DNA from: Deroplatys truncata
Taxonomy: Eukaryota; Arthropoda; Insecta; Mantodea; Mantidae
DNA length: 64,000 nucleotides
Direction of reading: 5' to 3'
NCBI GenBank assembly: GCA_030765065.1
Contig: CM060988.1
Location: 199,080,565-199,144,564 of the forward strand
The position numbers and the translations under genes are program-made. The first letter of the stretch is position 1. Each line of letters starts with the position of its first letter. Shown here one piece after another: positions 30,499 through 34,197 of the stretch. The notes below the pieces were generated by a model, which was not told where the DNA came from, did no database searches, and saw nothing but the letters and a program-made list of their open reading frames with translations.

Positions 30499-30613
30499 GA
30501 ACGGGATGACTCAGGCGATAAAGTCCGTGGCCCGCATTCGTGAGGTCCCGGGTTCAAATCCCGTGGGCCGACCAATCTGTCTGAGGTGTTTTCGTGGTTT
30601 TCCTCAGTCGCTA
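30499..30613 (+). mobile_element. tRNA-derived SINE head (type 3)
   Basis: A tRNA-like segment with box-A-like ATGACTCAGGCGATAAAG and box B CGGGTTCAAATCCCGTGGGC, followed by TCGTGGTTTTCCTCAGTCG. It runs directly into a 104-bp tandem repeat. The copy at 14041 shares the same head. Confidence 0.8.
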
Positions 30614-30960
30614 CAGGGGTTACAGGGATGAGACCTAGAAGGCTAACTGTTTGCCTTTCTGTGTGAGGGCGGCGGTTAGACTGGACGGCACCCTAATGCG
30701 ATCTGCACAGCATGAAGCAGGGGTTACAGGTATGAGACCTAGAAGGCTAACTGTTTGCCTTTCTGTGTGAGGGCAGCGGTTAGACTGGACGGCACCCTAA
30801 TGGGATCTGCACAGCATGAAGCAGGGGTTACAGGGATGAGACCTAGAAGGCTAACTGTCCGCCTTTCTGTGTGTGAGGGCGGCGGTTAGACTGGACGGCA
30901 TTCTAATGCGATCTGCACAGCATGAAGCAGGGGCTACAGGAATGAGACCTAGAATGTCCA
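30614..30960 (+). repeat. 104-bp tandem repeat, three and a third units
   Basis: Units begin CAGGGGTTACAGGGATGAG at 30614, 30718, 30822 and 30928 and contain GGCGGCGGTTAGACTGGACG. Period 104-106 bp, highly similar. The last unit is cut short and followed by an A-rich tail to about 31030. Confidence 0.95.
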
Positions 30961-31916
30961 TCACATATCGTTCAAAGAGATATCCACCAATAGATCCGTC
31001 GTTAAAGCGACGTAAAATAAAATAGAATTAAAAAAAACTCGGTGTATATCAGAGTATTAAGATTACAATGAACCGAAGTTATTTTATTTTAAATACACAT
31101 CGTCGCTGAAAAGACGAACAGACGTAAGCGACATAAATGTAATTTTACAGGAGAGCAGTTTAAAGAAAAGTGTGTTTACTTAGGGGCCTACGGCTCAAAA
31201 GCATAAAATGATAGATCAAATATAATACAGTGACTCAAAAGTATAATAGTTGTTCTTAATAAGCACTAATGTTAGACTCTAGAATTTGGATACCATATAG
31301 GCCAAAAAGGCTTAAATTGGAGATACGTCGGTTTGAAAGATTTCACCCATGATAGTAAGGCGCTTACACCATACACATGATCAATACATTAAGCTGATTT
31401 TTGCTATTGTTTTGAGCTGTAGCATTATTTATTTCTTTTTATGTATATTTTTCACGTATATATTTCTGTTCTAAGTACATAGTACGATGTAAAGCGTTGG
31501 AAGTCAATAAAACAAATAGTGGTATCTACTTATTTAACAACGGTAATATCAAGTATTTAAGTGTATTTTATTTGTTTTTAATTATCTGCAGTAATTTAGC
31601 AAATTATATATTTGTGTGTTTACACATCCTTAAAAACACACGACTTCTGAACTTATTTTAACAATAGCAAAATCAAGTGTATAGGTGTGCTATTTTGAAT
31701 GCCAATAGTTTGATGAATAATGTAGAGTAATATGTTTACAAATGGTATTAGGAAACAAACAGATAAGAAATTCTCTTTAACCATAGAAATATCAAGTATT
31801 AATATGTATGCTATTGCTTTTTTTCCCCCAAATTACATAAATAACGTTTTGTTTTGTTTTCAAATGCTTTTAGGAAACGTAAACAAGTATTGAAAATGTC
31901 CATGGGTTAATACAGC

Positions 31917-32123
31917 TTAGAAGTGTAGCAGTTCCTTGTAGAACGTTTTGTAAACATCTCTTATTACTGGTGTTGGCTCTTTGCATAACTCCTGTAGATC
32001 GCTGTACTTCTCAGCCGAAAGCTTTGCAGATGTGGCATTAAGTCGAGACAGAGGAAGCTTCAAAACCCGTGAAGTGTTCCTGGATTTCAGAGATAGCCGC
32101 TCATAATGTTTGGCAAAAGAATG

Positions 32124-32167
<44 letters not shown>

Positions 32168-33200
32168 GATGCAAGCGGCATCGTCTGTGGTCACTTTGAC
32201 TTCTCTGATTGCAGGCCAATCCACTTTGTTTTCAGATTGAAAACTTCGGGAATCGGATCTGTAGGCTCTCTGAAATGCTTTTGTAGTCCAAGAAATCTTC
32301 TACCCTTATAGAATGTGCTTCATACGGAGCAGCACTCGAGGAAGTCTCGCAACAGGTACCAGCTAAGAAGGTATGAAGATGTTCCATGCCTGAGTCAGGG
32401 TTCTTGAAATAGTGCTGTGGGCAGAATCACCTTCGTTTTGACCATGGTTAGGTTCGAAGAAGCACAAGTTGATAGACAGTGAATTCTTTTGAGTTACTTA
32501 GTATGTACAAAAACATGGTCACTACGGTGGTATTCTGACTACTGCCGGCATCAGCAAACAGCCTGACATACTTTACACCGCGGACATCAAGATGTTGAAG
32601 GTAGATTCCCACACAGGTTACAATCTCAGATGATCCCCTTTTGCTGATAGTCTCGCTTCATAGAAAGCAAAGACTCTTTGATTCAAATGTTGTGAAATTA
32701 TGTGCTGAAAAACGCATTCGATAGAATACAGCACTTTCTTTGGAAAGGGGAGGCTGAATCACTTGCTGAAGATCAAGTACCGCAGTGTTATCTTGGGTTT
32801 TCTTTGGCACCTTTTTGAGCATTGTTTTTCTCATTTCTTACATCATTCTTTTCTTCAGTGTGTTTGTCGTACATATCTTGCAACTCCATTTTCTCAGCAT
32901 CACATGAGCTAAGTTGCACACAAACTGCACTAGTCCTCCTTAGGATACTGGGATGATAGACTCATTGATTTGTATACTCTGGTGTAAGTTTTTGATAACT
33001 GGCTTTGGCCTGTGAGATGTTATCTTCATTATGCATAGAATACATTTTAGACAGAGTCAGGACTGGATGTAAATATTCTTAGGAATACTCTTCTGGACGA
33101 TGGTAAGTGCATTCGTTATTGTTATTTGAATTCTTTGTACATAGCGAACATAAACAAACTGGGCAAATCCCAGAACCTTCATTTTTTCAATTGAGAAATT
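31917..33200 (-). pseudogene. DUF7869-type protein, decayed
   Basis: Read on the minus strand across several frames, it gives, in family order: EYLHPVLTLSKMYSM, a linker with Cys-containing TSAVCVQLSSCDAEKMELQ, then YDKHTEEKNDVRNEK, a DLQQVIQPPLSKES block, AVFYRMRFSAHNFTTFES, SSEIVTCVGIYLQHLDVRG, VRLFADAGSSQNTTVVTMF, a GQNEGDSAHSTI motif, DFLDYKSISESLQIRFPK, a KVDWPAIREVKV block, and the C-terminus KYSDLQELCKEPTPVIRDVY ending at a stop at 31917. These match what I know of large arthropod proteins with a DUF7869 domain, whose function is unknown to me. At least five frameshifts or stops break it. A 37-T tract at 32125-32161 sits at a former Lys run. Upstream sequence to about 33600 may belong to it. 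Confidence 0.72.
32125..32161. repeat. 37-bp homopolymer T tract
   Basis: A pure T run, reading as poly-Lys codons on the minus strand, expanded inside the DUF7869 relic. Confidence 0.98.
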
Positions 33201-34197
33201 GATAGTTTTCACCATATAATGGATCATAGTTACTATTATTACAGTCACTAAATGCCTACTCCAGGTGGCGTATTTCCTTTTCTTAATGACAACACTGTTC
33301 CCTTATATTAGTGTTGTCTGCAGATGTAGCATTTACATTTTCAAAACTGTCTTGTATGTGGATCTTTAGAACGCTGAGAGCAACATCTATAGACTCCATT
33401 CCTGATTTTTCGTTCCGATTTTCGTTTGAACGAACCATCTGAATCACCTTCCCATAATAGTACTTCTTGTCTGATAACCACTATACTTAATTTCAGCACC
33501 TACCTTTAACGCATCACCTTCACTGCATTAAATTTCGTTGCATTATACCACATTCGTAGATCCATCTCTCCGCTTTACCAATAAGTCCATGTTCATAACA
33601 GATTGCTGCTTTACTGAGACTGCATTAGTTTGTTGCAGGTGTATTCAGACCAATCAATATTGTTGAAGCAGATTTTTCTTGTCCAAATTTATAAACACAT
33701 GTTCATTGTTGGCATCAGGTGGTAAAAATTGGTCTAGAGTCGCTAGCATTACATGAGTACATAGACGTATCGACCAATTTTAATAATCATAGTATCTAAC
33801 GAAGAGACGTAAGCGACTTGCGAGTCTCATTGCCCTGTTCGTCTGAAAAAGAATGAGTGAGCAATGGCGTTTACGACGATAACATGATGTTTACTGCTAA
33901 GTAACCATTAGAGATGGAGGTACGCCAGTTTGTCAGAATATAGATACGGTCAAATGTAGTGTATAGGCGAGATATCTCAATTTTTTCGATTTTGGCGCTT
34001 ACGCCACTTCGTCAGATGAGCGACGATATTTCAGTGTTTATTTGGGAACGGATCCCAGTGGTCTGCTGCTTTGTTAAAAGGTATGGGAGAGCTGCGCGCG
34101 CCGCCGGGTAAGATGCCATTATACTTGAGTTACGTCCCATGTAATTAGCGTATTATAGTGTGGTTGGTCAAACATTTTATTTCATGTTTACTCTTAT

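Follow-up and report, generated by a model that had tools for sequence, protein, structure and literature searches.

An inverted-repeat DNA transposon with a decayed DUF7869-type gene in a mantis genome, and DUF7869 as its candidate transposase

A stretch of 64,000 nucleotides of Deroplatys truncata DNA (referred to here in full as the window) carries on its minus strand what reads, across frames, as a broken gene for a DUF7869-type protein. Is this gene part of a mobile element, and if so, what does the DUF7869 protein do in it? A first-pass annotation, made from the letters of the sequence, had placed the gene in a terminal inverted repeat (TIR) transposon of about 3 kb, bracketed by an inverted motif with a GTAAGCG core that recurs subterminally; its mobility had been put forward as an inference.

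We delimited the element proper to positions 31101-34025 (minus strand; 2,925 bp, CGTCGCT...AGCGACG), and 32 other fetched copies could be aligned with it at both ends. The inverted motif extends over two 38-nt arms, at 31099-31136 and 33990-34027 (both given on the plus strand), which are 76% complementary and each take in 2 bp of the target-site duplication. This duplication is ACAT on the left (31097-31100) and ATAT on the right (34026-34029), so that one of its four bases is now unlike between the two sides. The GTAAGCG core is found at an outer site and an inner, subterminal site at each end, in opposite orientations: at 31124-31130 (plus) and 31361-31367 (minus) on the left, and at 33996-34002 (minus) and 33809-33815 (plus) on the right. 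The exact 7-mer was present in 28/33 two-ended copies at either outer site, and in 25/33 and 24/33 at the left and right inner sites, respectively. This amounts to 3.2 occurrences per copy at the four sites, against 0.2 expected from base composition. We regard these sites as candidate transposase binding sites. Directly to the left of the element lie three to four tandem units of approximately 104 bp each (30614-30954), adjoined by a stretch at about 30500-30580 that we read as tRNA-like; ARAGORN reported no tRNA there, and no Rfam family reached its gathering score in the window.

The genome from which the window was taken comprises 4.29 Gb. A search with positions 31091-34040 gave at least 48 matches, the window among them, at 87-100% identity, with 40 of 205 candidates scored; 26 of these matches ran from query base 1-11 to base 2930-2950, and the rest were partial. 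We took 40 copies with their flanks, and 33 were alignable at both ends, with pairwise identities of 0.908-0.980 (mean 0.939). The seven left out (L029, L036, L040, L043, L044, L047 and L048) had an end that was absent or too weak. Next to the truncated copy L048, an open segment of 269 aa runs from base 623 of the scanned stretch (plus strand, with the copy oriented); by our reading it resembles the GIY-YIG endonuclease that Penelope-type elements carry.

The termini were also searched for on their own, as 32-mers with up to 3 mismatches. There were 83 left and 117 right ends in the genome, and the reversed controls gave 0. A right end on the same strand lay within 50 kb of 60 of the 83 left ends, among the 100 of 117 right ends that were listed, and the number of left ends without a partner, at most 23, is an upper bound for the same reason. 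Of these pairs, 48 were 2.4-3.4 kb apart (median 2,898 bp) and the other 12 were longer (3.4-20 kb), while no pair in opposite orientation was seen between the 83 left ends and the 100 listed right ends. The co-occurrence of the termini about 3 kb apart, which had been proposed as a check, was thus borne out, as was a shared target duplication. Flanks of 4 bp were identical in 26/33 two-ended copies, whereas permuted pairs agreed in 12.6 on average and 18 at most; the agreement of permuted pairs is high because ATAT is the favourite target. When only the 12 copies with a left 4-mer other than ATAT were considered, the flanks agreed in 9; 20,000 permutations gave 1.25 on average and never more than 7. 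Duplications of any other width were rejected on comparing widths over the 33 copies: agreement was at chance, with 21/33 against 19.2 for width 2, and 0, 0, 1, 0 and 0 copies for widths 3, 5, 6, 7 and 9. Widths 8 and 10 gave one match each, presumably from copy L017, whose surroundings are an AT repeat.

Empty sites provided a further line of evidence. The joined flanks of five copies were used as query, with 40 of 4,888 candidates scored, and empty sites were found for one of the five, that of copy L011. There, 30 of the 40 rows crossed the joint unbroken at 90-94% identity (from query base 241-252 to 359-361, with the joint at 270/271, as seen by coordinates only), and the other 10 rows were the flanks of the five sites themselves. 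The unbroken rows indicate that L011 inserted into another repeat, other members of which lack the insertion; these are paralogous empty sites. The element in the window is a copy of a repeated, dispersed TIR DNA transposon that has moved.

We then considered the gene. From 69 segments of 30 further DUF7869 loci in this genome, all without DNA similarity to the window element, we made a profile and compared it with 1,773 six-frame segments covering the whole window. The top three matches all fell inside the element; each is on the minus strand, and their order is that of the domains (E = 0.011, 1.7e-6 and 0.0092). The part with the first aspartate (VLDLQQ...; 32676-32786) corresponds to profile positions 8-44, that with the second (RLFADAGSSQN; 32475-32654) to positions 55-114, and the C-terminal part (31932-32105) to positions 224-277, all on the minus strand. 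An open segment with the third aspartate (GQNEGDSAHS; 32366-32497, minus strand, aspartate codon at 32426-32428) is in another frame in the window copy and had no match of its own in the profile search. Each of the three aspartates, in D-LQQ, FAD and EGD, is kept in 31/33 copies of the family. Over the 40 copies, 141 of 147 profile matches (E<=10) were on the coding strand. Single-frame read-throughs of copies L030 and L037, with X at stops, scored 70.5 and 54.1 bits, and among 2,000 shuffles the highest score was 9.5. Judged by these matches, the minus strand of the window carries the remains of a DUF7869-type protein, much as the first-pass annotation had read it. Pfam's own DUF7869 model gave no match at E<=10 to the pieces or read-throughs of the window family, the gene of which appears to have diverged or decayed too far to be recognised by it (PF25273). 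The link from the window family to DUF7869 therefore passes through the other loci, which do match Pfam.

The decay of the gene is largely common to the copies. In 31/33 copies one and the same codon is TGA, and 29/33 have another stop further upstream. The longest open segment on the coding strand among the 40 copies (in the class of at least 150 aa) is of 176 aa, and neither an intact copy nor an autonomous partner of the family was found among them. A long run of T within the decayed gene (32125-32161, poly-lysine on the coding strand) varies in length among copies. Stops common to most copies suggest that the family probably spread after its gene had died, mobilised in trans; the gene of the master copy probably already contained stops, and its descendants would have moved non-autonomously.

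What could have moved them may be seen from the other DUF7869 loci of the genome. The Pfam PF25273.1 model gave 1,253 first-look candidates; all of the 150 that were scored lay over the cut-off, and several had long open frames. We examined 30 DUF7869 loci for ends, with approximately 3.4 kb of DNA each. The setting of such relatives had been a concern from the outset, and 6 of the 30 proved to lie in elements with inverted ends and identical 4-bp A/T flanks. These form family A (L051, L070 and L076; ends GAATCGCT..., flanks ATAT, AATT or ATTT), family B (L053 and L069; ends GAAGACCTGA..., flanks AATT) and family C (L062; ends GAGGCATTG..., flanks AATT). Their termini differ from those of the window family, and the 4-bp duplication is common to all. 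In the remaining 24 loci, no paired ends flanked by identical bases were seen within the approximately 3.4 kb taken for each, which may be too little DNA; in one of them, L064, the flanks are one base short of identity. Six of the 24 (L054-L058 and L061) are near-identical, at 99-100% over 3.4 kb, and lie on contig C7 and four small contigs; they appear to be duplicated or unplaced haplotype sequence. A copy of family B is adjoined by an open segment of 329 aa (L074:2484-3470) that reads like the reverse transcriptase of a non-LTR retrotransposon.

Relatives were also present in bacteria. A pattern-based scan of a prokaryote collection (84,980 species) matched 26 stretches, two of which encode DUF7869 relatives. 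In Desulfocicer vacuolatum (L079), an open gene of 657 aa lies between perfect inverted repeats of 43 bp in an element of about 2.1 kb, the flanks of which (AAAT and ATTT) show no clear duplication. In Thiomargarita nelsonii (L080), an element of about 2.1 kb has 45-nt arms with 91% complementarity and is flanked by ATTT as a 4-bp duplication; its DUF7869 gene is divided between two frames. The DUF7869 model of Pfam scored 66.7-69 bits for L079 and 78.3 bits for L080, with a cut-off of 26 bits. Both resemble the window family in having a DUF7869 gene between inverted repeats, but the sequences of the ends are unlike. They are rare, with 1/395 and 1/369 genomes positive, in each case the query itself, and no relatives were found in viral contigs, plasmids or phages. 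By our own reading, the Desulfocicer element adjoins, and seems to interrupt, broken frames of an IS3-type transposase (L079:3553-4360).

Elements with unlike ends that have in common a DUF7869-type gene and, except for L079, a 4-bp duplication lead us to infer that DUF7869 is the transposase. Elements of this kind are very probably mobilised by it, both in the mantis and in two bacteria at least, and the simplest reading of the sequences is that it is a DDD transposase with presumably RNase H-like catalysis. We aligned nine rows to follow the aspartates. All nine have the second one (SDN/FAD), and 8/9 have the third (CDR/EGD/SPD), where L062 has a glutamate. The first is present in 5/9: both rows of the window family, L065 and both bacteria. 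Elsewhere, L069 has an asparagine, L051 and L062 are unaligned at the site (L062 reads IDMQQ in another frame), and L067 has no coverage there. These rows, those of families A and B and that of L062, come from copies that are partly decayed themselves. Given this decay, the pattern is compatible with a DDD enzyme, but it is no proof of one.

Structure prediction was less informative. A prediction from a single sequence had a pLDDT of 37, and one from two rows a pLDDT of 47.6; in the latter, the order of strands and helices looked RNase H-like by eye, at low confidence, and both predictions were too poor for an RNase H core to be recognised. Foldseek returned no match at E<=0.001, the best weak matches being cytidine deaminases. 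As this preference lacked significance and the predictions were poor, we make no claim as to the fold. Among solved structures no relative was recognised: the best matches to P0001 were cGAS chains (E = 0.0096-0.038) and one ribosome-biogenesis chain, which we took as due to chance. NCBIfam gave no match above a cut-off.

Taken together, we consider it highly likely that the element at 31101-34025 is an inactive cut-and-paste copy, of a family moved in trans by the DUF7869 transposase of intact relatives. Such relatives would supply the enzyme, which would bind the inverted ends and the paired subterminal GTAAGCG sites and excise the element; insertion would follow at A/T-rich sites, preferentially ATAT, through a 4-bp staggered cut that gives rise to the 4-bp duplication. 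The copies in this genome would derive from a master with a probably stop-bearing gene, and would have spread non-autonomously, in trans.

The first-pass annotation had regarded DUF7869 as a protein that travels in a TIR transposon. That it travels in one holds, with the correction that the protein is more plausibly the transposase than a passenger. DUF7869 could instead be a captured passenger or regulatory gene, with the element moved by some other transposase. Within the family, 40/40 copies have a broken gene, so that something else moves or moved the element, and such a role would agree with a first aspartate that only some of the aligned rows conserve, with a structure that was not confidently predicted and with a catalytic role that is read from sequence. 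Against this, when proteins of the three other families and of one bacterial element were scanned, Pfam recognised DUF7869 as their sole domain and gave no further transposase or integrase domain. Moreover, families with unlike ends have the 4-bp duplication in common, and in two bacteria, too, the DUF7869 gene is bracketed by inverted repeats; repeated capture of a passenger would be far less likely than this, and we regard it as an improbable explanation.

Still less probable, and to our minds very unlikely, is that another superfamily with 4-bp duplications has carried a DUF7869 gene along. Ginger elements make 4-bp duplications. Kolobok and piggyBac have TTAA duplications of 4 bases (PMC9587614). 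TTAA was present in 0/33 left and 0/33 right 4-mers, on which ground we rejected Kolobok and piggyBac, and Pfam shows no second transposase or integrase domain in DUF7869 proteins that would point to any of the three. Finally, that inverted motifs came to stand by chance beside the pseudogene of an ordinary host gene, as ends just 76% complementary and a decayed gene might suggest, was rejected as hardly conceivable in view of the dispersed copies with the same ends, the duplications, the paired termini and the empty sites of L011.

The transposase reading leads to the question of which known kind of transposon the family belongs to. Sola elements are described as DDD transposons of bacteria and metazoans with 4-bp duplications, mostly 2-9 kb in size and with inverted ends of at least 11 bp (PMC10741241). 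The 4-bp target duplication is present in the window family, and the likeness to Sola (Sola1, Sola2 and Sola3), compared by description only, extends to size and inverted ends, and may extend to the bacterial relatives and the putative DDD transposase. Curated Sola1 elements of bivalves average 5,445 bp (PMC10294476), and are longer than the 2,925 bp of the window element. Going by the description in the review, we think it likely that the window family belongs to the Sola superfamily, and the label 'undescribed' in the first-pass annotation is unproven for this reason. It is possible, though we rather doubt it, that DUF7869 is instead the catalytic domain of a superfamily distinct from Sola. 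This would span insertion sequences of bacteria as well as transposons of eukaryotes and be marked by 4-bp A/T-rich duplications; the window family would have, in addition, paired outer and inner inverted binding sites at each end. By comparison with Sola at the level of description only, the window family is probably a new family within a known kind of transposon.

The Pfam entry for DUF7869 (PF25273, presumably paired with InterPro number IPR057191) has a short description without a named function; the proteins of families A-C, L065 and both bacteria lie over its curated cut-off. Full-text search, the scope of which lay outside Repbase and subscription journals, retrieved no paper on DUF7869 or PF25273, and the peptide GQNKN led to unrelated papers only. 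With these elements, DUF7869, a domain of 'unknown function', would gain a definite role, that of a transposase, which is open to testing and for which the two bacterial elements may serve as small experimental systems. Such a role would change the annotation of the many predicted DUF7869 'genes'.
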